Both the position numbers and the translations under genes were made by a program. From Streptomonospora nanhaiensis (GTDB lineage: Bacteria; Actinomycetota; Actinomycetes; Streptosporangiales; Streptosporangiaceae), in assembly GCF_013410565.1 (NCBI RefSeq), contig NZ_JACCFO010000001.1, forward strand, positions 4,464,001-4,528,000: a DNA stretch of 64,000 nt, written 5' to 3'. This document shows positions 32,449 through 41,830 of this stretch, in pieces; position 1 is the stretch's first letter, and every line of letters begins with the position of its first letter. The notes beneath the pieces were generated by a model. It made no database searches. It was not told the origin of the DNA and saw nothing but the letters and a program-made list of their open reading frames with translations.

Positions 32449-33225
32449 TCACCGCAGGGCGGCGATCGCGCCCGGGACGTCGTCGACCACGACGGCGTCC
32501 ACACCCGCCTCGGCGAACCGGGCGGCGTCCACCGGGCCGGGGCACCACGACACCACCTCCAGGCCCGCGCGGTGGGCGACCTCGACCGTGTAGCCGACCT
32601 CGCGGCGGCCCGGCCGGGGCTCCTCACCCGCCAGGCCGAAGGAGCGGGCGTCGACGGCCACGATCGCGCAGCCCAGCCCGGCCGCGCCCGCCACCGCCTG
32701 GTCCAGCGGATTGCGCACGAACGGCATCCACGCGGTGGGCACCCCGGGCGCGTGCTCGTGGACGTACAGCAGCGCGGCGGGGTCGAAGGAGCACACGAAC
32801 AGCCGGCGGCGCCCGGCCTCGCGGCGCAGCACCGGCGCCAGCAGCGCCATGGTGCGCCGGTGCCCGGGGTCAACGGCGTCCTCCATGACCGACTTGACGT
32901 CGACGTCCACCCCGACCTCGGGCGGCACCGCCTCCAGCGCCTCCTCCAGGGTGATCAGCCCCGCCTCGCGGCACAGCGCCGAGGGCAGGTCCACGATCAC
33001 GCGGCCGTCGGGCAGGGCGGGGTCGTGGTTGACCACCAGCACGTCGTCGGCGGCGCGGCGGACGTCGACCTCGATCCAGTCGGCCCCGGCCTTGGCCGCC
33101 GCGGCGAAGGACTCCGCGGTGTTCTCGCGCAGGCCGTCGACCGTGCCGCGGCCCAGCCCCCGGTGGCCGATCACCTCGGTGGCGGTGAACACCCGGCCGC
33201 GCGCGGCCGCGCCCCCGCCCGTCAC
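32449..33225 (-). CDS. glycerophosphodiester phosphodiesterase
   Basis: A 258-residue GDPD-family TIM barrel with the signature VIGHRG, RENTAESF, the acidic metal ligands in WIEVDVRR and the His in NHDPAL. No signal peptide is evident, so it acts in the cytoplasm. The start GTG 33225 overlaps the stop of the cytidylyltransferase gene (GTGA), so the two are co-translated. Its substrate is likely a glycerol- or polyol-phosphodiester, fitting the alcohol-phosphate chemistry of this locus, but generic lipid turnover is also possible. Confidence 0.92.
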   Translation of the reverse strand: MTGGGAAARGRVFTATEVIGHRGLGRGTVDGLRENTAESFAAAAKAGADWIEVDVRRAADDVLVVNHDPALPDGRVIVDLPSALCREAGLITLEEALEAVPPEVGVDVDVKSVMEDAVDPGHRRTMALLAPVLRREAGRRRLFVCSFDPAALLYVHEHAPGVPTAWMPFVRNPLDQAVAGAAGLGCAIVAVDARSFGLAGEEPRPGRREVGYTVEVAHRAGLEVVSWCPGPVDAARFAEAGVDAVVVDDVPGAIAALR

Positions 33226-34007
33226 CGCAGCGCCTCCGCGGCGGCCTCGGCGCGCAGCCGCAGCAGCACCTCGGCGACCTCGACGTCGCCGGGGTGGGTG
33301 ATCTTGATGTTGGCCTCGTCGCCCTCGACCACCCGGACCGGCTCGCCCGGCAGGTAGCGCAGCACCACGCCGCAGTCGTCGGTGGCCACCAGGGCGGGGT
33401 CGGCCAGCGCGCTCTCGTAGGCCCGGCGCAGCACCCCCAGGCGGAAGCCCTGCGGGGTCTGCATCCGGCGCAGCGACGCCCGGGGCGGCACGGCGCGCAG
33501 CATCTCGGTGCCGCCGGGCCCGGCCGCGACCTCGACCACGGTGTCGCCCGAGGGCACCGCCACGCCCACCGCGCCCGCCGTGGCCAGCGCGGCCACGCAG
33601 CCGCTGATGACCGCCCGGGTGACCAGCGGCCGCGCGGCGTCGTGCAGCAGCAGAAGGTCGGAGTCGCGGCGGTGGGACACCGCGGCCAGCGCGGCAGCGG
33701 AGGTGGCGGTGCGGGTGGCGCCGCCCGGCAGCACCGCCGACACCTTGGCGAGGTCGGCGCCGGCCACGATCCGCTCCGCCTCGGCCAGGTGCTCGCCCAC
33801 CATCAGCACGATCACGTCGTCGACCTCGGGCGCCGCGCAGAACGCCGCCACCGCGTGCTCCAGCACGGCGCGCCCGGCCAGCGGCAGCAGCTGCTTGGGC
33901 AGGCCGCCCCCCATGCGGGCGCCCACGCCGCCCGCCAGCACCGCGGCGGTCACGTGCGGGCGGTCCGCCCCGGCCGCACCGCCCGGCGCGGACTCCTCAA
34001 CCGGCAT
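33222..34007 (-). CDS. IspD/TarI-like cytidylyltransferase
   Basis: A 261-residue CTP:alcohol-phosphate cytidylyltransferase. The nucleotide-binding loop is AAVLAGGVGARMGGGLPKQ, followed by LLLHDAARPLVT, MQTPQGFR, TDDCGVV and the Lys in EANIKITHPGDV. The family includes IspD (MEP, isoprenoid pathway) and TarI (ribitol-5-phosphate, wall teichoic acid). Placement beside wall-polymer export genes and coupling to a GDPD favour an alcohol-phosphate role, but IspD function cannot be excluded without knowing whether the genome has another copy. ATG 34007 has AAGGGAG upstream; the frame is open to 34550 but lacks support there. Confidence 0.85.
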   Translation of the reverse strand: MPVEESAPGGAAGADRPHVTAAVLAGGVGARMGGGLPKQLLPLAGRAVLEHAVAAFCAAPEVDDVIVLMVGEHLAEAERIVAGADLAKVSAVLPGGATRTATSAAALAAVSHRRDSDLLLLHDAARPLVTRAVISGCVAALATAGAVGVAVPSGDTVVEVAAGPGGTEMLRAVPPRASLRRMQTPQGFRLGVLRRAYESALADPALVATDDCGVVLRYLPGEPVRVVEGDEANIKITHPGDVEVAEVLLRLRAEAAAEALR

Positions 34008-34458
34008 CGACTCCCTTTCTCCGCGTGGTCGATAGCCGAGGGTAGCGGACCCGCGCCGGGCGCCGCCGGTGTCCGGCGAGAACGCCTGGCCCGGCGGCCC
34101 GGCCCGCGCCCGCGCACGGGGTAGGCTGAGGCGCGCCGGGCCGGTGGGCCCGGCGCACCCGGCGGGACCGGGCGGGCCGTGCGAGGCGCCGGCCGAGCGC
34201 GCCGGCGCGCTCCGGCGCACCCCACGCGCCCGGCCGCCCACCACCGCGCCCCGCGCACCGTCCCGCCGCTCGCAGGAGAACTCCCCGGTCCGGCGCCACT
34301 CGGCGCCACTCGGCGGTGCCGAGCACCGCCGTGGCCGCGCCGCGCGGTCCGCGCCGCCCGGAGGCACCGCCCAGGCCCCCGCACGGCCCCGCGCGGTGCC
34401 CCCGTACGGGCCGGGGCGCGTGATCCCCCCGTCTGATCCGCTCCATAAGGAGGTGGCG
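34008..34458. other. 451-bp divergent region upstream of the ABC exporter
   Basis: Very GC-rich, no gene with credible codon use or start. A GGGTAGGCTGA motif at 34120-34130 contains a TAGGCT hexamer like the one before gtrA and may be a -10 box. The exporter's ribosome site (AAGGAGGTGG) is at 34447-34456. Confidence 0.45.
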
Positions 34459-35283
34459 GTGCCGTCAAGGGCGCTGGCCGTCTGGCAGAACCGGCAGGTC
34501 GTGAGCCTCCTGGTCGCGCGCGACCTCAAGGTCAAGTACCAGAAGTCCATCCTGGGCTACGCGTGGTCCATGCTGGAGCCGCTGGCCATGGCCGGGGTGT
34601 ACTTCTTCGTCTTCGGCCTCATCTTCAACACCAACCGGGGGGTGCCCGGCGGCGACGACGCTCCGGGCGGCTACCTGCTGTTCCTCATCTCGGGGCTGCT
34701 GCCCTGGCTGTGGTTCTCGCAGTCGCTGAGCCAGGCCCCCAACGCGCTGATCTCCCACGCCAAGCTCATCACCACCATGAAGGTGCCCCGGGAGATCTTC
34801 CCGATCGAGGTGGTGGCCGCGAAGTTCGTGGACTACCTGTTCACCTGGCCGGTGCTGCTGCTGTTCGTGTTCGCCCTGGGCGGGCGCACCAGCGCCGAGG
34901 GGCTGCTGGTGTGGCTGCCGCTGGCGATCGTGGTGCAGATCGTGTTCTCACTGGGCATGACGCTGCTGCTGGCCTCGGTCAACGTGCTGGTCCGCGACAT
35001 CGAGCGGGTCGTGCGTATCCTGAACCGGGTGCTGTTCTACGCGTCGGCCATCATCATCCCGTCGTCGCTGGTCCTGGACTCCGACTTCCCCGACTGGTTC
35101 GTCACGCTCTACCAGCTCAATCCGCTGCTGGGTATCTTCAAGATGCACCACGCGGTGTGGTACCCGGCCGACGCGCCCAACGCCCTGATCCTGAGCACGA
35201 GCATCGGGGGAGCGCTCATCCTGCTCGTCGCCGGATACCTGACCTTCCGGCGCCTGGAGACTTCCGTCCTGAAGGAGCTGTAA
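34459..35283 (+). CDS. ABC-2 type polysaccharide/teichoic acid exporter permease (TagG-like)
   Basis: A 274-residue ABC-2 permease with six membrane helices. It has the N-terminal amphipathic segment LLVARDLKVKYQKSILGYAW, SMLEPLAMAG and a conserved cytoplasmic/membrane stretch TTMKVPREIFPIEVV typical of TagG/Wzm/KpsM permeases. GTG 34459 has a near-perfect Shine-Dalgarno (AAGGAGGT) 5 nt upstream. It forms the channel for a lipid-linked wall polymer and pairs with the overlapping ATPase gene. Confidence 0.94.
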   Translation: MPSRALAVWQNRQVVSLLVARDLKVKYQKSILGYAWSMLEPLAMAGVYFFVFGLIFNTNRGVPGGDDAPGGYLLFLISGLLPWLWFSQSLSQAPNALISHAKLITTMKVPREIFPIEVVAAKFVDYLFTWPVLLLFVFALGGRTSAEGLLVWLPLAIVVQIVFSLGMTLLLASVNVLVRDIERVVRILNRVLFYASAIIIPSSLVLDSDFPDWFVTLYQLNPLLGIFKMHHAVWYPADAPNALILSTSIGGALILLVAGYLTFRRLETSVLKEL

Positions 35284-36311
35284 TGGCGGAGCCGGTCATC
35301 GAGGCCAAGGGGCTCGGCATCAAGTTCGCGATGAACCGCAAGCGCCGGCGCAGCCTGCGCGAGATGCTCATCCACGGGACCAAGCGCGACCCCAACGCCT
35401 CCGGCGCCGAGTTCTGGCCGCTGCGCGACGTCTCCTTCTCCATCGAACAGGGCGAGTGCGTCGGCATCGTCGGCAAGAACGGCACCGGCAAGTCCACCCT
35501 CCTCAAGATCATCGCGGGCGTGCTCATCCCCGACGAGGGCACGGTCGAGGTCCGGGGCAAGGTCGCGCCGCTGCTGGAGCTGCGGGCAGGGTTCAACGGC
35601 CAGCTCACCGGCCGCGAGAACATCTACCTCGTGGGGTCGCTGCACGGCATGAGCCAGCAGACCATCGACGAGCGCTTCGACGAGATCGTGGAGTTCGCCA
35701 ACATCCGCGAGGGCTACATCGACATGCCCGTGCGGCACTACTCCAGCGGCATGAAGGTCCGGCTCGGCTTCGCGCTGATCTCCCAGTTGGACCACCCCAT
35801 CATGCTGGTGGACGAGGTGCTGGCGGTGGGCGACCGCGCGTTCAAGCGCAAGTGCTACCGCGCCATCAGCCGGATGCTGGAGGCCGACCGCACCATGGTC
35901 CTGGTCTCCCACAGCGAGGGCGACCTGCGCCGGTTCTGCACCCGCGGCCTCTACATGAAGGACGGCCGCCTGGTGCTCGACACCGACATCGACACCGCGC
36001 TGGCGGCCTACCAGGCCGACGCCCAGGCCGAGCAGGAGGCGCAGAAGGCCAAGCGCGCCGCCAAGCAGGCCAAGGCCGAGGGCGCGCAGGCCGCCGGCGC
36101 GGCCGGGCGGAACCAGGCCGCTGAGACCGGCGACACCGGGGAGACCGGCCAGGCGGACCAGCCGGCCGCGCCGCCCGGTCCGGGCGCGCCATCGGACTCC
36201 GCCGCCCCCGAGGGCTCGGGCACCCCGGCCGCCCCCTCCGAAGACCCCGCCGACCCCGCTCAGGGCAGCGGCGACCGCACCCCCGGCCGCGGTGACGACC
36301 GCGCCGCCTGA
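35283..36311 (+). CDS. polysaccharide/teichoic acid exporter ATPase (TagH-like)
   Basis: A 342-residue ABC ATPase that overlaps the permease by one base (TAATG). It has Walker A GKNGTGKST (about residues 62-70), signature YSSGMKVRLGFA, Walker B IMLVDEVLAVGD and the switch His in LVSHSEGD. The first 235 residues are the normal domain; the last 105 or so are a coiled-coil-like Lys/Ala stretch then a disordered Pro/Asp/Gly-rich tail without a recognisable carbohydrate-binding fold. It energises export of the polymer through the adjacent permease. Confidence 0.94.
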   Translation: MAEPVIEAKGLGIKFAMNRKRRRSLREMLIHGTKRDPNASGAEFWPLRDVSFSIEQGECVGIVGKNGTGKSTLLKIIAGVLIPDEGTVEVRGKVAPLLELRAGFNGQLTGRENIYLVGSLHGMSQQTIDERFDEIVEFANIREGYIDMPVRHYSSGMKVRLGFALISQLDHPIMLVDEVLAVGDRAFKRKCYRAISRMLEADRTMVLVSHSEGDLRRFCTRGLYMKDGRLVLDTDIDTALAAYQADAQAEQEAQKAKRAAKQAKAEGAQAAGAAGRNQAAETGDTGETGQADQPAAPPGPGAPSDSAAPEGSGTPAAPSEDPADPAQGSGDRTPGRGDDRAA

Positions 36312-36456: not shown

Positions 36457-37464
36457 GTGTCGGACGTCGACGCGCGCAGCGGCGGCAAGGGCGCACGGCG
36501 GCCCTGGTCAGTGGCGCGCCGGCTGCGCGAATGGCAGGTCGGTCCCACCGGCATGTCGCAGATCGGGCTGCTGCTGGCCGTGGCGGCGGCCGTCTGGTTC
36601 ACCGACTCCGGGGTGCGCGGCGCCGTCGTGGGCTCGCTGCTGCTGGCCCTGGTGCTGTGCACCGACCCCGTCGCCGAGCGGCTGCGGGGCGACCGGCCCG
36701 ACCGCCTGGAGCTGTGGCTGTCGCTCATGCTGCTCCGGCTGCGCGAGTACGTCGTCTACGTCGGCCTGGCGGTGGGCGGCGCCCTGGCGGGCGTGCCCGA
36801 CGCCTGGGCGTGGGCGGCCGGGGCGCTGATCGCCCAGGCACTCCAGGACTCCGTGGCCGCCGCGCGCGGCGCCCGCGCCGGCGAGCCCGAGTGGATTCCC
36901 GGGCCCGACGGGGGCACCCCTCTCGACGCGGTCGACCCCAGCCGCGACGTCGCCGACCGCTCGCCCAGCGACCCCTCGCTCGCCGACGAACTGCTGGGCG
37001 ACCCCCGCGAGCCCGAGCCCCCCGCCCCCGCCGATGCGCCCGCCGGCGCGACGGCGGCCGGAGACCCGGCGGCAACTGTCCCCGCGCCGCGCGCCGCCCC
37101 GGCACCCGAGGGCGGCGCCGACACGGCGGACACAGAAGGCACGGACGGCACGGAGGGCCCGGCCGGCGCCCGCCTGCGCACGGTGCCCGCCGGGCGGCCC
37201 TGGCCGGGCTGGGCCCACGCCCTGTGCCGCTCCGCCGCCGCCGACACCGGATCCGCCGCCCCGGCCGGCGCCCGCCCCGGCCTGCGGGTGCCCCCGCCGG
37301 TGCGTGCGGTCCTGGCCTTCCCGCAGATCGCCCGCTTCGCGGTTGTCGCGCTGACGATAACGATTTGGGACGCGCGGGTGACGTTCATCGCACTGATCGC
37401 GGGCTGCGCCCTGGCGATCGCCGTCGAACTGGTGGAGACCACCACCCCGGACACCGCGAGGTAA
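36457..37464 (+). CDS. membrane protein of unknown function
   Basis: A 335-residue protein with hydrophobic segments at both ends and a disordered acidic/Pro-rich middle (about residues 130-275). N-terminal helices lie around GLLLAVAAAVWFTDSG and AVVGSLLLALVLC; the C-terminal pair is around FAVVALTITIWDARV and FIALIAGCALAIAVEL. GTG 36457 has GGGAGGGG 7 nt upstream and is preferred to GTG 36424. The next gene (DUF5941) begins 3 nt after its stop, so they probably work together in the membrane. No family recognised. Confidence 0.75.
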   Translation: MSDVDARSGGKGARRPWSVARRLREWQVGPTGMSQIGLLLAVAAAVWFTDSGVRGAVVGSLLLALVLCTDPVAERLRGDRPDRLELWLSLMLLRLREYVVYVGLAVGGALAGVPDAWAWAAGALIAQALQDSVAAARGARAGEPEWIPGPDGGTPLDAVDPSRDVADRSPSDPSLADELLGDPREPEPPAPADAPAGATAAGDPAATVPAPRAAPAPEGGADTADTEGTDGTEGPAGARLRTVPAGRPWPGWAHALCRSAAADTGSAAPAGARPGLRVPPPVRAVLAFPQIARFAVVALTITIWDARVTFIALIAGCALAIAVELVETTTPDTAR

Positions 37465-37467
37465 CCT

Positions 37468-38127
37468 ATGGGCGCGTCCCCTCGTCCGCCGGCCCGCTCA
37501 GGCCCCGATCTGCGGTTTCTGCGCGACGACGGCCACCTGAGCACCGCCCTGGGCCGGCTCGCCGCCGGCGGGCTGCCCCCGCTGCTTCCGGCCGTCGCCG
37601 GAGCGCTGGTGGTGGGGGTGCTGCTGGTGGCGGGGCTCAACCGGCTGTCAGGCATTACCCTGTTCGCACCGGTGGCCGCGCTGCTGCTCTCCGGAGTGGC
37701 CTCGGGGCATCCGCACGACGGGCGCTTCGACCGGCTGGTGCCGCCGATCCTCCGCGCGACCGAGTATCTTTATCTGCTCGCGCTCGGCTACGGATCCGGT
37801 GTCCCCGGCCCCCTGGTGTTCGCGCTGGTGGCCGTGGTCGCGCTGCACCACGCCGACGCCGTGCACCGCACGCGCTGCGGTGTGCGCCCCCCGGCGTGGC
37901 TCATGCGGGCCATGCTCGGCTGGGACGGCCGGATGTTGGTCACGGCCGTCGGCGGCGCACTAGGTTGGCTGCCGTTCACCTACGGTGTACTTGCGGGTTA
38001 CCTCACGGTCCTGCTCGTCTGGGAGGCCACGACGGGCTGGCTGGCGACCCCCATCGCGGAGGCGGAGGCAGAGCCCTCGGAGGCCCCGCGCAACGACTCG
38101 GGAGGCGTGGACGCCTCCACTGGCTAA
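37468..38127 (+). CDS. DUF5941-type membrane protein
   Basis: A 219-residue polytopic protein with about five membrane helices. The segments DGRFDRLVPPILRATEYLY, HHADAVHRTR and GWDGRMLV match what I recall of DUF5941, a domain found in actinobacteria near or fused to nucleotidyltransferase and CDP-alcohol transferase domains. It starts 3 nt after the upstream membrane gene and is followed 16 nt later by the cytidylyltransferase, forming one operon. The biochemical role is unknown. Confidence 0.8.
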   Translation: MGASPRPPARSGPDLRFLRDDGHLSTALGRLAAGGLPPLLPAVAGALVVGVLLVAGLNRLSGITLFAPVAALLLSGVASGHPHDGRFDRLVPPILRATEYLYLLALGYGSGVPGPLVFALVAVVALHHADAVHRTRCGVRPPAWLMRAMLGWDGRMLVTAVGGALGWLPFTYGVLAGYLTVLLVWEATTGWLATPIAEAEAEPSEAPRNDSGGVDASTG

Positions 38128-38143
38128 GGAGGAGCACGCCTAC

Positions 38144-38875
38144 ATGCTCGGTATGGTTCTTGCCGCCGGAGCGGGCCGCAGACTGCGCCCATACACCGAC
38201 ACCCTGCCCAAGGCCCTGGTGCCGGTCGATGGTGAGACCACCATCATGGACATCTCGCTGCGCAACCTCGCCGCGGCCGGGCTCACCGACGTCGTGATCG
38301 TCGTGGGCTACCGGTCCGAGGCGGTGGAGCAGCGCAAGGAGGCCCTGGAGCGGCGCCACGGGGTGAAGCTCACCCTCGTGTACAACGACAAGGCCGAGGA
38401 GTGGAACAACGCCTACTCCCTGTGGACCGCGCGCGAGTACTTCTCCGAAGGCGTCCTCCTCGTCAACGGCGACACCGTGCACCCGGTGAGCGTCGAGGAG
38501 ACCCTACTCGCCGCCCGCGGGCCCGAACTGCTCCTCGCGGTGGACACGGTCAAAACTCTGGCCGAAGAGGAGATGAAGGTGATCCTGGACGACTCCGGGC
38601 ACCTCAGCCGCATCACCAAGCTGATGGACCCGGCCGAGGCCGCCGGCGAGTACATCGGCGCCACCCTCATCGAGGGCTCCCTGGCCGGCCGGCTCGCCGA
38701 CGCGCTCAAGGCCACCTGGGAGCGCGACCCCCAGCTCTACTACGAGGACGGCTACCAGGAGCTGGTCAACCGCGGCGGCAAGGTCGCGGTGGCCCCCATC
38801 GGCACCGTCGACTGGGTCGAGGTCGACAACCACGACGACCTCGCCCGAGCCCGGGAGATCGCATGCCGCTACTAG
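38144..38875 (+). CDS. nucleotidyltransferase, probable CTP:alcohol/sugar-phosphate cytidylyltransferase
   Basis: A 243-residue NTP-transferase with the activation loop LAAGAGRRLRPYTDTLPKAL, the product-binding VNGDTV (Asp for metal) and a closing VDWVEVDNHDDLARA. The EWNNAYSLWTAREYF segment resembles LicC/inositol-1-phosphate cytidylyltransferase-type enzymes that accept small alcohol phosphates. AAGGAGGAG precedes ATG 38144. The end overlaps the dehydrogenase gene by 13 nt. With the next two genes it forms an activate-and-transfer module for an alcohol phosphate (inference). Confidence 0.88.
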   Translation: MLGMVLAAGAGRRLRPYTDTLPKALVPVDGETTIMDISLRNLAAAGLTDVVIVVGYRSEAVEQRKEALERRHGVKLTLVYNDKAEEWNNAYSLWTAREYFSEGVLLVNGDTVHPVSVEETLLAARGPELLLAVDTVKTLAEEEMKVILDDSGHLSRITKLMDPAEAAGEYIGATLIEGSLAGRLADALKATWERDPQLYYEDGYQELVNRGGKVAVAPIGTVDWVEVDNHDDLARAREIACRY

Positions 38876-39930
38876 CCCGGATGCTCGCCGCCCCCCTGGC
38901 GATCGACGTCCGCCGGGGCGCCATCGGCTCGCTGGGCACCGTGCTCGCCGACCGCCGCATCGCCAACGAGGGCCGCATCGCGGTGGCGGTCGGCCCCGGG
39001 CAGGGCTCCCAGATCGCCGCCGAACTCGACCTGCCGCACTGCGAGGTGTTCAAGGTCGAGGGCGGCAGCGTGGACGTCGCCACCGAGCTGGGCAAGAAGC
39101 TGCGCGCGGGCGCCTATGAGGCCGTGGCCGGAATCGGCGGCGGCAAGACCATCGACGTCACCAAGTACGCCGCCTCGATGGCCGGCATCCCCATGGTCGC
39201 GGTGGCCACCAACCTCTCCCACGACGGCATCGCCTCGCCGGTCAGCTCCCTGGAGCACGAGAGCGGCAAGGGCTCTTACGGAGTCACCATGCCGGTGGCG
39301 GTCGTGGTCGACGTCGACTACGTGCGCGCCGCGCCGCAGCGGCTGGTGCGCTCGGGGATCGGCGACGCCGTGAGCAACCTCTCGGCCATCGCCGACTGGG
39401 AGCTGGCAGGCCGCGAGCAGGGCGAACCCGTCGACGGCATGGCGGTGACCTTCGCCCGCGTGGCAGCCGAGGCCATCCTCAACCGGCAGGACTCCGTGGA
39501 CTCCCAGGACTTCCTGACCGCGCTGGCCGAGGCGCTGGTGCTGTCGGGCATGGCGATGTCGGTGGCCGGCTCCAGCCGCCCCGCCAGCGGCGCCTGCCAC
39601 GAGGTGCTGCACGCCATCGACCAGCTCTACCCCGGCACCAGCAACCACGGGGAGCTGGCGGGGGTGGGCGCGCTCTACGCCTACTTCCTGCGCAGCCGCT
39701 ACCAGGGCGAGGGGGAGTCCCGCCTGGAGGACATCCGCGCCTGCCTGCTGCGCCACGGGCTGCCCGTCGTGCCCGCCGACATCGGCCTGGACGAGGAGCA
39801 GTTCGCCCGCGCGGTGGCCCACGCCCCCTCCACGCGCCCGGGACGCTACACCGTCCTGGAGCACCTTGCCCTGTCGGACGACGAGATCAGGCGGAGCGTC
39901 GGTGAGTATGCCAAGACCGTCGGTCGCTGA
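38863..39930 (+). CDS. glycerol-1-phosphate dehydrogenase-like enzyme (iron-containing alcohol dehydrogenase superfamily)
   Basis: A 355-residue enzyme of the dehydroquinate synthase-like/iron-containing alcohol dehydrogenase fold, closest in pattern to sn-glycerol-1-phosphate dehydrogenases (AraM/EgsA type): GIGGGKTIDVTKYAA, ATNLSHDGIASP, metal ligands Asp168 in GIGDAVSN, His246 in SGACHEVLH and His262 in NHGELAG. Members reduce DHAP to sn-glycerol-1-phosphate, the archaeal stereoisomer; other polyol phosphates are possible. It is locked between a cytidylyltransferase and a CDP-alcohol phosphotransferase by overlapping reading frames. ATG 38863 has GGGAG upstream. Confidence 0.88.
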   Translation: MPLLARMLAAPLAIDVRRGAIGSLGTVLADRRIANEGRIAVAVGPGQGSQIAAELDLPHCEVFKVEGGSVDVATELGKKLRAGAYEAVAGIGGGKTIDVTKYAASMAGIPMVAVATNLSHDGIASPVSSLEHESGKGSYGVTMPVAVVVDVDYVRAAPQRLVRSGIGDAVSNLSAIADWELAGREQGEPVDGMAVTFARVAAEAILNRQDSVDSQDFLTALAEALVLSGMAMSVAGSSRPASGACHEVLHAIDQLYPGTSNHGELAGVGALYAYFLRSRYQGEGESRLEDIRACLLRHGLPVVPADIGLDEEQFARAVAHAPSTRPGRYTVLEHLALSDDEIRRSVGEYAKTVGR

Positions 39931-40678
39931 GGTCCGCGCCGGCGGCCAGCCCGAGGGCGTCAAGGAGCGCGTCAACGAGGAGCACTGGGCCGGCCGCCTC
40001 TACATGCGCGACATCTCCCCCTACCTCAGCACCCTGTTCGTCCGGCTGGGCGTGCCGCCCAACCCCATCACCTACCTGATGATGGTGTGCGGGGTGCTGG
40101 CCGGGGTGGTCCTGGCGTTCGGCGGGCTGTGGTCGGCGCTGGCGGCGCTGCTGCTGGTGCAGGTCTACCTGCTGCTGGACTGCTCCGACGGCGAGGTCGC
40201 GCGCTTCACCGGCCGCACCAGCACGGCCGGCATCTACCTCGACCGCATCGGCCACTACCTGGCCGAGATCGCGCTGCTGATCGGCCTGGGCATCCGCGCC
40301 CAGGGCGAGTTCGCGGCGGGCGACTGGGTGGTCGCCGGCATGGCCGCCGCCCTGGGGGCCGCGGTGATCAAGGTCGAGACCGACAACGTGGTCGTGGCCC
40401 GCGCCAAGGCCGGGCTGCCCGAGAAGGTCGCCGACGCCGCGCTCCAGCCGCGCTCGGCCGGCCTGGGCCTGGCCCGCAAGGCCGCCGCCGCGCTGCGGTT
40501 CCACCGGGTAATCCAGGCGGTGGAGCTGTCCCTGCTGGTGGCGGCGGTGGCCGTGGTCGACGCCGTGCGCGGCGACCTGCTGGCCACCCGGGCGCTGGTG
40601 GCCGTGTGCGTGGCCGTGGCGGTGCTGCAGTCGGTGCTGCACCTGGTCAGCGTGCTGGCCTCGCGCCGGCTGGAGTAG
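39908..40678 (+). CDS. CDP-alcohol phosphotransferase family membrane protein
   Basis: A 256-residue polytopic enzyme of the CDP-alcohol phosphatidyltransferase family. The signature runs LLDCSDGEVARFTGRTSTA then GIYLDRIGH: it keeps D-x2-DG-x2-AR-x8-G-x3-D, but the fourth Asp is His. In characterised members that Asp acts as the catalytic base, so this is notable. The gene overlaps the dehydrogenase end by 23 nt. A GTG at 39902 is an alternative start. It probably uses the CDP-alcohol made by the upstream module to place an alcohol phosphate on a lipid or glycan acceptor. Confidence 0.9.
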   Translation: MPRPSVAEVRAGGQPEGVKERVNEEHWAGRLYMRDISPYLSTLFVRLGVPPNPITYLMMVCGVLAGVVLAFGGLWSALAALLLVQVYLLLDCSDGEVARFTGRTSTAGIYLDRIGHYLAEIALLIGLGIRAQGEFAAGDWVVAGMAAALGAAVIKVETDNVVVARAKAGLPEKVADAALQPRSAGLGLARKAAAALRFHRVIQAVELSLLVAAVAVVDAVRGDLLATRALVAVCVAVAVLQSVLHLVSVLASRRLE

Positions 40679-40969
40679 CCGGCGGGGTGCCGCCGGCCCG
40701 GCCGCCGACCGCGGGGCGTGTGCGGTGAATCACGCCACGAACCCCTATGCTTTATTTCTTCGTTAGGCCATTCATGCGATGGTTAATTTGAGTACACCTG
40801 TCATCCACGTCCACGAACGGTGTCTATGACCAGCCCAGCTCTCTCCGGCGTTCCGGCGACCGAGCCGCGGGAGGCCTCCGCGCGGCGGCCGGTTGGCTCT
40901 GACGACACCTCGGGCCCTGCCACGGTCACTCCCCCCGACGACGGCACGGGGCGCGGAGGTGCGCAGCGC
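40679..40969. promoter_or_regulatory. AT-rich intergenic stretch, probable promoter for the next glycosyltransferase
   Basis: Around 40740-40800 the sequence becomes unusually AT-rich (CTTTATTTCTTCGTTAGG, GGTTAATTTGAG). A TTCGTT / 17 bp / GTTAAT arrangement could be a weak promoter. In-frame starts for the next gene at 40820 and 40826 lie just downstream. Confidence 0.4.
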
Positions 40970-41830
40970 ATGAAGATCACCTGCGTCCTCCTGACCATGG
41001 GCGACCGCCCGGCCGAACTCCGCCGCGCCATCGACAGCGTGCGCGAGCAGCGGGACGCCGACATCGAACTGGTCGTGGTCAGCAACGGGTGCGCCCTTCC
41101 CCGGCTGCCCGACGACGTCATCACGGTGCAACTCCCCGAGAACGTCGGCATCCCCGAGGGCCGCAACCACGGCGTGAAGGCCGGCACCGGCGACATCATC
41201 CTGTTCCTCGACGACGACGGCTGGTACCGCTCGCCCGAGGTCGCCCGGCACATCAGCGCCAAGTTCGCGGCCGACCCCCGGCTCGGCGCGATCTCGCTGC
41301 GGATCGCCGACCCCGACGGCGGCCCCGACCAGCGGCGGCACGTCCCGCGCCTGCGCGTGGGCGACCCCCACCGCTCCAGCCGCGTCACCACCTTCCTGGG
41401 CGGCGCCAGCGCCGTGCGGCGCAGCGCCTTCGAGAAGTGCGGCGGCCTGCCCGGCGACTTCTTCTACGCCCACGAGGAGACCGACCTCGCCTGGCGGATC
41501 ATGGACGCCGGCTACCACATCGAGTACGACGCCGAAGCCGTCATGTACCACCCGGCCGTGCCGCCCACGCGGCACGCCGAGTTCTACCGGCTCAACGCCC
41601 GCAACCGGGTGTGGCTGGCGCGCCGCAACCTCCCGTGGCCGCTGGCGCTGGTCTACCTGGCCGACTGGGTGGCGATCACCCTGCTGCGCGAGCGCCGGTC
41701 GCGCGAGGCGCTGGCGGCGTGGTTCCGCGGCTTCCGCGAGGGCTGGCGCGAGGACTGCGGTCCGCGCAACCCCATCAAGTGGTCCACGGCCTGGCGCATG
41801 ACCCTGACCGGCCGCCCGCCCATCATCTGA
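40970..41830 (+). CDS. family 2 glycosyltransferase
   Basis: A GT2 enzyme of 286 residues from ATG 40970, with GGAGG 10 nt upstream. The frame also opens from ATG 40826 or GTG 40820, which would add about 50 Ser/Thr/Pro-rich residues without a ribosome site. Motifs: ITCVLLTMGDRPAELRRAI, NVGIPEGRNHGVK, the DxD-like LFLDDDG, LGGASAVRRSAF and HEETDLAWRI, as in rhamnosyltransferase-type GT2 enzymes. The basic C-terminal region may be peripheral to the membrane. It adds a sugar to the envelope polymer. Confidence 0.9.
   Translation: MKITCVLLTMGDRPAELRRAIDSVREQRDADIELVVVSNGCALPRLPDDVITVQLPENVGIPEGRNHGVKAGTGDIILFLDDDGWYRSPEVARHISAKFAADPRLGAISLRIADPDGGPDQRRHVPRLRVGDPHRSSRVTTFLGGASAVRRSAFEKCGGLPGDFFYAHEETDLAWRIMDAGYHIEYDAEAVMYHPAVPPTRHAEFYRLNARNRVWLARRNLPWPLALVYLADWVAITLLRERRSREALAAWFRGFREGWREDCGPRNPIKWSTAWRMTLTGRPPII

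Follow-up and report, generated by a model that had tools for sequence, protein, structure and literature searches.

Bacteria of the Streptomyces type carry a conserved gene set whose products appear to synthesize glycerol phosphate in its archaeal, mirror-image form and to activate it; the most likely destination of this unit is a cell-surface polymer. We describe the set in Streptomonospora nanhaiensis, in a window of 64,000 nucleotides (the whole stretch of DNA analysed), where a cytidylyltransferase, a dehydrogenase of the sn-glycerol-1-phosphate dehydrogenase (G1PDH) type and a CDP-alcohol phosphotransferase, here called CDPOH1, are encoded side by side. From sequence comparisons and structural models we infer the catalytic activities, the stereochemistry and the destination of the product; the best reading, which we consider probable, is a pathway that leads from DHAP through sn-glycerol-1-phosphate and CDP-(1-sn-glycerol) to an envelope glycopolymer. 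The dehydrogenase would reduce DHAP to sn-glycerol-1-phosphate, which the cytidylyltransferase would convert with CTP to CDP-(1-sn-glycerol); CDPOH1 would then pass the Gro1P unit to a membrane acceptor, a GT2 glycosyltransferase would add sugar, and a TagGH-type ABC exporter would carry the product, still linked to lipid, to the outside; the outcome would be an envelope glycopolymer that contains Gro1P. If this is true, bacteria build their envelope in part from an activated glycerol phosphate of archaeal handedness. Since TagD uses sn-glycerol-3-phosphate and conventional CDP-glycerol is the sn-3 form (PMC7086022), CDP-(1-sn-glycerol) would be its enantiomer.

Re-calling the genes between positions 36457 and 40678 yielded five genes, all on the + strand, of which the final three overlap (by 13 nt between the cytidylyltransferase and dehydrogenase genes and by 23 nt between the dehydrogenase and CDPOH1 genes), confirming the gene set put forward in a sequence-only reading of this DNA (Table 1). 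That reading had also placed a TagGH-type exporter beside the unit, and genes with family matches to TagG and TagH do precede it closely in the same orientation. Its count of five genes stands, but the conserved unit is wider and takes in the GT2 gene and TagGH. As judged by eye, translation of the TagG gene probably begins at or near the GTG at 34459. For TagH, the highest-scoring NCBIfam models are those of export ATPases for polysaccharides and teichoic acid, none of which reaches its cut-off. The presumed counterpart in S. coelicolor is SCO6753-6758. An IspD gene (33222 to about 33950) was considered as part of a polyol pathway and rejected: no other IspD match in the genome is full-length, three being weaker and partial, and it is thus probably the MEP enzyme.

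Table 1. Genes of the conserved unit and its surroundings, in positions of the window
Feature	Position	Strand	Evidence
ORF with TagG/Wzm-like ABC-2 permease	34069..35283	+	PF01061 35.6 bits, residues 145-354
TagH/Wzt-like ABC ATPase, start approximate	35268..36311	+	PF00005 75.1 bits
Membrane protein, degenerate CDP-alcohol phosphotransferase domain, GTG start	36457..37464	+	hhalign, no Pfam match
DUF5941 membrane domain protein	37468..38127	+	PF19365 98.8 bits
Cytidylyltransferase-type NTP_transferase	38144..38875	+	PF00483 53 bits; PDB 1jyk E 2.4e-15
sn-Glycerol-1-phosphate dehydrogenase-like enzyme (EgsA/AraM clade)	38863..39930	+	PRK00843 244.4 bits; 4rgq E 2.7e-46; AF2 model; tree
CDP-alcohol phosphotransferase CDPOH1, His for signature Asp D4	39908..40678	+	PF01066 29.4 bits, cut-off 22
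GT2 glycosyltransferase, conserved next gene	40820..41830	+	PF00535 55.2 bits

The earlier likening of the dehydrogenase to G1P-forming enzymes is borne out by phylogeny, in which the protein groups in the EgsA/AraM clade with characterized G1PDHs, apart from GldA; support for the branching order within the G1PDH side is only moderate (86/80, 87/81 for its subclades). The G1PDH model PRK00843 scored far above the glycerol dehydrogenase profile (75 bits) and below its NCBIfam equivalog cut-off of 413, and we accordingly assign the protein to the wider clade rather than to the archaeal equivalog. In sequence searches of the PDB it matched M. jannaschii G1PDH entries best, and its AF2 model aligns nearly full length to the M. 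jannaschii enzyme (Z 39.9), with Z 37.0 for B. subtilis AraM and at most 33.9 for annotated GldA proteins other than 3ce9. The latter is the best structural match (Z 41.0, tied); it was named a glycerol dehydrogenase by its depositors, yet it carries the SxPxSG insertion and in the tree falls on the side of the G1PDHs. The dehydrogenase shares this five-residue insertion, together with DG and DW motifs, with archaeal G1PDH, and three GldA rows of the alignment lack them; D168, H246 and H262, presumably the metal site, are invariant in 14 aligned rows. Clade, fold and signature residues together point to a dehydrogenase that makes sn-glycerol-1-phosphate from DHAP, although we know of no activity for any member of its subfamily.

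The same relay could instead act on another polyol, turning a different keto-phosphate (e.g., a tetrulose or pentulose phosphate) into a different CDP-polyol, from which a polymer of glycosyl polyol phosphate would be built. AraM relatives do occur in pentose or kinase operons (in Rubrobacter, for instance, some are encoded among sugar-kinase genes, which suggests that other keto-phosphates may be substrates in the wider clade); the missed equivalog cut-off, the CHE found around a conserved His in place of the EH of archaeal G1PDH, and a mannitol-dehydrogenase-like gene in the cluster of a distant genome, G385, fit this alternative too. We nevertheless regard it as unlikely, given that the motifs separating G1PDH from GldA rows are retained, that archaeal G1PDH and B. 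subtilis AraM share one side of the GldA branch, and that the CDP-glycerol-transferase-family (Glyphos_transf) protein of G385 is nearest to the glycerol-phosphate enzyme TarF (276 bits) and not to the ribitol enzyme TarL (93 bits).

The cytidylyltransferase and the dehydrogenase had been proposed to act as a unit, and their genes have indeed stayed together more than expected by chance: of 39 close loci, 37 have the former directly upstream of the latter (36 with an overlap), and the two are within 300 nt of each other in 11 of 16 distant loci, defined by a dehydrogenase only 34-42% identical. No cytidylyltransferase was found among the annotated neighbors of plasmid-borne dehydrogenase homologs (D. 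vulgaris, Cytobacillus, Priestia). Relatives of the cytidylyltransferase include LicC, PntC, IPCT and the CTP:phosphocholine cytidylyltransferase 1jyk, and profile and PDB sequence searches gave no substrate-specific match. Based on its family and on the nearly invariant, usually overlapping gene pair, we propose that it is a candidate CTP:sn-glycerol-1-phosphate cytidylyltransferase. Phosphocholine, named in the family annotation of the Streptomyces protein, is not favored as a substrate because of the dehydrogenase partner. In G385 and G117, which belong to one distant clade, the Glyphos_transf gene adjoins the pair, as it does in only two of the four genomes of this TarF-bearing clade; here the same CDP-(1-sn-glycerol) donor may be used by a teichoic-acid-type enzyme. 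When supplied with racemic CDP-glycerol in vitro, TagF-like capsule polymerases can build in Gro1P (PMC8262930).

A membrane CDP-alcohol phosphotransferase gene follows that of the dehydrogenase in 35 of the 39 close loci, whereas in L068, L069, L073 and L075 the downstream CDP-OH protein is of another subfamily or was not found. CDPOH1 is assigned to this family by Pfam and by its fold: its AF2 model superposes best on AF2299 (Z 17.1, rmsd 3.7 over 208 residues) and AfDIPPS, with PIP synthases at Z about 15. Both top matches use soluble donors, which favors the preferred pathway. Its signature, D1xxD2G1xxAR...G2xxxD3xxxD4, retains seven of eight residues, with His at D4, a feature absent from the first description of the locus. 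D4 is His or Ala in 35/35 orthologous loci and Asp in 20/20 controls, the twentieth having been scored with a looser pattern. As the signature, D4 included, has been described as absolutely conserved and mutation of D4 nearly abolishes a related enzyme (PMC4634129), CDPOH1 may be inactive or do something else. It could thus be a noncatalytic scaffold, CDP-glycerol being used by TagF-like proteins encoded elsewhere, and Glyphos_transf genes are present in 20 of 34 genomes, that of S. nanhaiensis included. We consider this improbable, since the seven remaining positions of the signature are intact, 35/39 loci still carry the gene, and a CDP-OH protein with D4 stands in for CDPOH1 in L068 and L069 and, in L052, comes after the dehydrogenase. 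Sequence and model suggest rather that CDPOH1 works like a CDP-alcohol phosphotransferase, and we leave canonical catalysis unclaimed. One conceivable D4-free chemistry would employ a phosphate nucleophile (polyprenyl phosphate), for which no base would be needed, to yield polyprenyl-PP-glycerol; if true, this would be a new reaction type for the family. Lacking D4, CDPOH1 offers a test of the accepted catalytic model for a large membrane enzyme family.

The proposed export of the product is consistent with the wider neighborhood, in which TagG and TagH lie within 12 kb of the unit in 31 of the 39 close loci and a GT2 gene lies downstream in 33, the gene order differing among loci. Such conservation argues against a lipid head-group or small-molecule pathway, in which a CDP-alcohol would be transferred to a lipid or to inositol phosphate (a DIPP-type solute) with the exporter as an uninvolved neighbor. 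That alternative, which we judge quite unlikely, draws on the fold resemblance of CDPOH1 to AF2299 and AfDIPPS; on six loci (L067, L068, L069, L073, L075 and L083) in which TagGH was not found within 12 kb; and on Streptomyces fungicidicus, where the unit adjoins hopanoid genes.

G1P might also feed archaeal-type ether lipids, a use already suggested in print for Streptomyces, of which species with G1PDH, GGGPS and DGGGPS have been reported (PMC6431249). In our searches, however, PcrB/GGGPS was found in 0/151 sampled Streptomyces, though the dehydrogenase is present in 151/151, and 34 genomes, including S. nanhaiensis (0 matches), yielded no full-length GGGPS but only two fragments of about 47 residues each, that of G056 just over the cut-off (24.7 versus 23.9 bits); positive controls were recovered in both searches. 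We therefore reject ether lipids as the main use of G1P and hold this destination to be highly improbable. The genes, their families, their linkage and this lack of full-length GGGPS in the sampled genomes can be read directly from the sequences. The dehydrogenase resembles EgsA/AraM G1PDHs in clade, nearly full-length fold, SxPxSG insertion and the Asp and two His residues, and departs from archaeal EgsA, which supplies ether lipids, in that no full-length GGGPS was found, and in the overlapping cytidylyltransferase gene and CHE versus EH.

The preferred pathway, from DHAP to an envelope glycopolymer, can be compared with the TagD-TagB/F-TagGH route to wall teichoic acid, with which it shares the proposed CTP-activated glycerol phosphate, TagGH-type export and, in two distant relatives, a Glyphos_transf gene beside the pair. 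TagD belongs to a different fold family (CTP_transf_like), and for the locus we propose transfer by an integral membrane CDP-alcohol phosphotransferase in place of TagB/F. No TagD or TagB/F homolog was found among the family-scanned genes of the locus. Genome-wide, TIGR01518 (glycerol-3-phosphate cytidylyltransferase) exceeded its cut-off in 0/34 genomes and gave weaker matches in 18/34, the best in S. nanhaiensis being HldE-like; a Streptomyces relative of the CTP_transf_like family (L120) scored 82 on rfaE_dom_II and 58 on TIGR01518. Because of these weaker relatives, we do not claim that TagD is absent and that the pair must therefore supply CDP-glycerol. Archaeoglobus IPCT-DIPPS and AF2299 likewise pair an NTP_transferase-type cytidylyltransferase with a CDP-alcohol phosphotransferase for soluble donors, but the products of IPCT-DIPPS are solutes, whereas an exporter-linked product is proposed here, and D4, conserved in that family, is absent from CDPOH1; we know of no dehydrogenase partner for these systems.

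LtaS polymerizes outside the cell, from phosphatidylglycerol, and likewise yields Gro1P units, in contrast to the cytosolic CDP donor and ABC export proposed for the locus. Lipoteichoic acid (LTA) is itself made of Gro1P (PMC7086022). According to PMC3196553, clear LtaS orthologs were, as of 2011, lacking in sequenced Actinobacteria, which nonetheless produce polyglycerolphosphate LTA, so the locus is a testable candidate and a concrete gene set for this published puzzle. In Actinobacteria it might provide the missing route to lipoteichoic (or wall) acid of the Gro1P type that does without LtaS, combining cytosolic CDP-(1-sn-glycerol), a CDPOH1 without the catalytic-base aspartate and TagGH export, a suggestion that we consider rather doubtful. 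LTA detection in Streptomyces is patchy, with none found in S. verticillus (PMC3196553), which is in tension with a dehydrogenase present in every Streptomyces species sampled.

The pathway had been put forward as a candidate undescribed one, but several of its parts are known. G1PDH homologs in Streptomyces are already in print (PMC6431249, PMC5059525), as is, since 2026, the synteny of a G1PDH homolog with tagGH and a CDP-alcohol transferase (PMC13118837). The literature covered relates bacterial G1PDH homologs to lipids of the archaeal type and to the ancient lipid divide. Among the matches listed in open-licence literature, no proposal of a G1PDH-cytidylyltransferase-CDPOH pathway was found, and G1P dehydrogenase occurred together with CDP-glycerol only as a reference-list mention.

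The first gene of the unit had been read as a membrane protein, and this prediction stands with its identity refined. The protein aligns with the CDP-OH region of a Streptomyces DUF5941 fusion (hhalign probability 99.9, E 1.5e-30), and on sequence grounds is what is left of a second, now defunct CDP-alcohol phosphotransferase, its catalytic signature having been lost. No article on DUF5941 was found in the open-licence literature searched. In Streptomyces fungicidicus (L088), an intact CDP-alcohol phosphotransferase domain is fused to DUF5941.

Five genes at 36457-40678 of the window, all in one direction, follow the TagG and TagH genes on the same strand, next to which the sequence-only reading had placed them, and a GT2 gene lies downstream. 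The overlap claimed for the last three genes was confirmed (see table), and the predicted membrane protein is indeed present but proved to be all that remains in the window of a second CDP-alcohol phosphotransferase (CDP-OH), reduced to a motif-less protein (hhalign 99.9). The genes further out encode an LCP protein, GDPD, IspD, a nucleotide-sugar dehydrogenase, a UDP-GlcNAc 2-epimerase, and several GT4s, so that an envelope-glycopolymer region is plausible. The IspD ORF, the sole full-length IspD match in the host genome, is over-long, with the domain confined to residues 201-431; its first ~200 residues are probably non-coding and partly antisense to tagG. Elsewhere, the segment 20001-24000 has a G+C content of 0.67, clearly below the other 4-kb bins (0.73-0.80).

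Features of the five-gene unit and the neighboring IspD ORF (positions in the window)
Feature	Position	Remark
Motif-less membrane protein	36457-37464	first gene of five
DUF5941 protein		second gene of five, between membrane protein and cytidylyltransferase
Cytidylyltransferase	38144-38875	third gene of five
G1PDH-like dehydrogenase	38863-39930	13-nt overlap with cytidylyltransferase gene
CDPOH1, CDP-alcohol phosphotransferase	39908-40678	23-nt overlap with dehydrogenase gene
IspD ORF	33222-34550	minus strand, 442 aa

The dehydrogenase shares 99% identity with the Streptomonospora mangrovi protein, in line with a Streptomonospora-like (Nocardiopsidaceae) host. It had been likened to sn-glycerol-1-phosphate (G1P) dehydrogenases (G1PDHs), and its best PDB sequence match, a sequence insertion, and its position in a tree all agree with this. 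That best match is the G1PDH of M. jannaschii (E 2.7e-46), which scores 190.9 bits in a profile search; 3ce9, named a glycerol dehydrogenase by its depositors, ranks third (177.7 bits), and the best other glycerol dehydrogenase reaches 59.5 bits. The archaeal G1PDH equivalog model gives 244 bits, below the cut-off of 413 and hence no equivalog call, versus 75 bits for the glycerol dehydrogenase model. An AlphaFold2 model (pLDDT 86) is closest to 3ce9 (Z 41.0), M. jannaschii G1PDH (39.9), 5fb3 (37.9), and B. subtilis AraM (37.0), the remaining GldAs scoring 33.9 and below. In the alignment, a five-residue SxPxSG insertion occurs in all G1PDH-side rows shown, 3ce9 included, and is missing from three GldA rows. 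The second position of this insertion holds Arg in our protein, as it does in the structures of the archaeal enzyme and AraM, whereas 3ce9, Cytobacillus, and Priestia have Ser, Ala, or His there. The G1PDH and GldA sides can also be told apart by DG and DW motifs, though not by GGGxxxD and HG, and the nearest departure from archaeal G1PDH is a CHE where the latter has EH. We take D168, H246, and H262 to be the metal ligands. In a 59-row maximum-likelihood tree, which contains one very long Rubrobacter row, the dehydrogenases most similar to ours form one clade (100/99) and group with the characterized G1PDHs and 3ce9 across the GldA branch (100/100), the branch order among G1PDH subclades being only moderately supported. 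On a Rubrobacter indicoceani plasmid, two annotated G1PDH genes lie among FGGY kinases and rpiB, which suggests that parts of this AraM clade act on other substrates.

At E 1e-3, 144 of 396 genomes of the phylum matched the dehydrogenase, mostly weakly. Our set of close loci had 39 members, 19 of them in named genomes and 20 taken from the 30 remaining close matches. They are not independent events because many are near relatives, although their hosts range over Streptomyces, Nocardiopsidaceae, Solirubrobacter, and several further families; L009, L014, and L018 are truncated by contig ends. The cytidylyltransferase gene lies directly upstream of the dehydrogenase gene in 37 loci, overlapping it in 36, and was not found in L075 and L083; CDPOH1 follows in 35, GT2 and DUF5941 each occur in 33, and TagG plus TagH lie within 12 kb in 31. 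At 16 distant loci (from 20 matches above 140 bits; 34-42% identity), the cytidylyltransferase gene is within 300 nt in 11 and 3.4 kb away in a twelfth; it was not found in L060, L062, and L063, and L051 sits at a contig edge. None of the 16 showed CDPOH1, TagGH, or DUF5941. The dehydrogenase is present in 112/120 genomes of the window's family and in 151/151 of a genus that we take as Streptomyces, since its loci are 80-90% DNA-identical over long stretches to that of S. fungicidicus. Two genomes of presumed Streptomyces (G315 and G275) carry extra copies between a large RNase E-like ORF and an Obg-like one (both assigned by eye), one with the cytidylyltransferase (L073) and one without (L075); no CDP-OH, CDPOH1 included, was found there. 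On S. fungicidicus plasmid p1 (L088, 10789-19017), the unit directly precedes annotated hopanoid genes (hpnC-hpnD-hpnE, shc), none of which occurred among the family-scanned neighbors in the window.

The predicted CDPOH1 structure (pLDDT 84.5) is closest to AF2299 (Z 17.1), followed by AfDIPPS (15.4), tied with PIP synthases (15.3 and below), and choline phosphotransferases (up to 11.0). The eight residues of the CDP-OH signature are described as absolutely conserved, its fourth Asp (D4) is the proposed catalytic base, and a D93N variant retains almost no activity, according to the pertinent sections of PMC4634129. In the 35 orthologous loci, D4 is replaced by His (25) or Ala (10), the latter in Streptomyces loci only, and the named S. 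fungicidicus likewise has Ala; four weaker, non-orthologous downstream matches (L052, L057, L068, and L069), all with Asp, were excluded. As controls, 20 further CDP-OH regions were taken from five of these genomes: 19 fit the signature with Asp, and the twentieth (L106), with Val for the signature Arg, has Asp by a looser pattern. The second, upstream CDP-OH, fused to DUF5941 in S. fungicidicus, has Asp in all 14 close loci having it and in one distant locus. A D4-bearing CDP-OH lies downstream of the dehydrogenase in L052, and one of another subfamily takes the place of CDPOH1 after the cytidylyltransferase-dehydrogenase pair in L068 (G327) and L069 (G192), where TagGH was not found within 12 kb; a CDP-alcohol transfer step therefore seems required.

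We infer the catalysis, stereochemistry, and acceptor of the following pathway: DHAP would be reduced to G1P, which would be converted to CDP-(1-sn-glycerol) and transferred to a membrane acceptor, followed by sugar addition and export via TagGH. This donor would differ from conventional CDP-glycerol, which is sn-3 and from which B. subtilis builds a wall teichoic acid of Gro3P, its lipoteichoic acid (LTA) being Gro1P (PMC7086022, in part). TagF-like capsule polymerases are reported to be able to accept Gro1P when supplied in vitro with racemic CDP-glycerol (PMC8262930, in part). The component proteins belong to known families, and Streptomyces G1PDH features in the work of Yokobori et al. (PMC5059525, in part). 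The claim of an undescribed pathway stands for the proposed use of CTP to activate G1P in this unit, for which we found no published proposal in the literature searched, but not for the synteny: an analysis of 929 Streptomyces genomes (the relevant part of PMC13118837) reports araM as syntenic with tagGH and with genes for a CDP-alcohol transferase and a nucleotidyltransferase, an arrangement that it treats as teichoic acid biosynthesis, giving no pathway. G1P might instead serve archaeal-type lipids, as Coleman et al. list Streptomyces species holding G1PDH, GGGPS, and DGGGPS (PMC6431249, in part). With positive controls giving signal in both searches, GGGPS (PcrB) was found in 0/151 Streptomyces, and 34 genomes searched in the same way held no full-length match, only two fragments of ~47 residues, one (G056) at 24.7 bits for a cut-off of 23.9. 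Judging from the searches for GGGPS, G1P is therefore unlikely to serve here as it usually does in archaea.

The proposed pathway makes the locus a candidate for actinobacterial LTA synthesis without LtaS. As laid out in part of PMC3196553, the polyglycerolphosphate LTA of Streptomyces hygroscopicus closely resembles its wall teichoic acid, a clear LtaS is missing from sequenced Actinobacteria, and an alternative route overlapping wall teichoic acid synthesis is proposed. Two points call for caution: the same source reports no LTA in S. verticillus, yet the dehydrogenase occurs throughout our sample of the genus, and this source points to tagB/tagF. Genes of the CDP-glycerol-using Glyphos_transf family are present in 20/34 genomes; one lies ~4.5 kb off in the same cluster at a close locus (G271), and one adjoins the pair in two genomes of a distant clade (G385 and G117) and not in the other two (G301 and G329). 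TagD reached its cut-off in 0/34 genomes, which we do not use as an argument because 18/34 hold weaker relatives; that of the host is HldE-like, and one from Streptomyces scores 82 with rfaE_dom_II versus 58 with TagD. The G385 Glyphos_transf protein matches TarF (glycerol-phosphate transferase) with 276 bits, TarL (ribitol) with 93, and TarB with 50. The genes beside this one and the pair (L056, 11481-13738) include one resembling mannitol dehydrogenase and one for a HAD phosphatase, a possible hint of a second polyol in this lineage.
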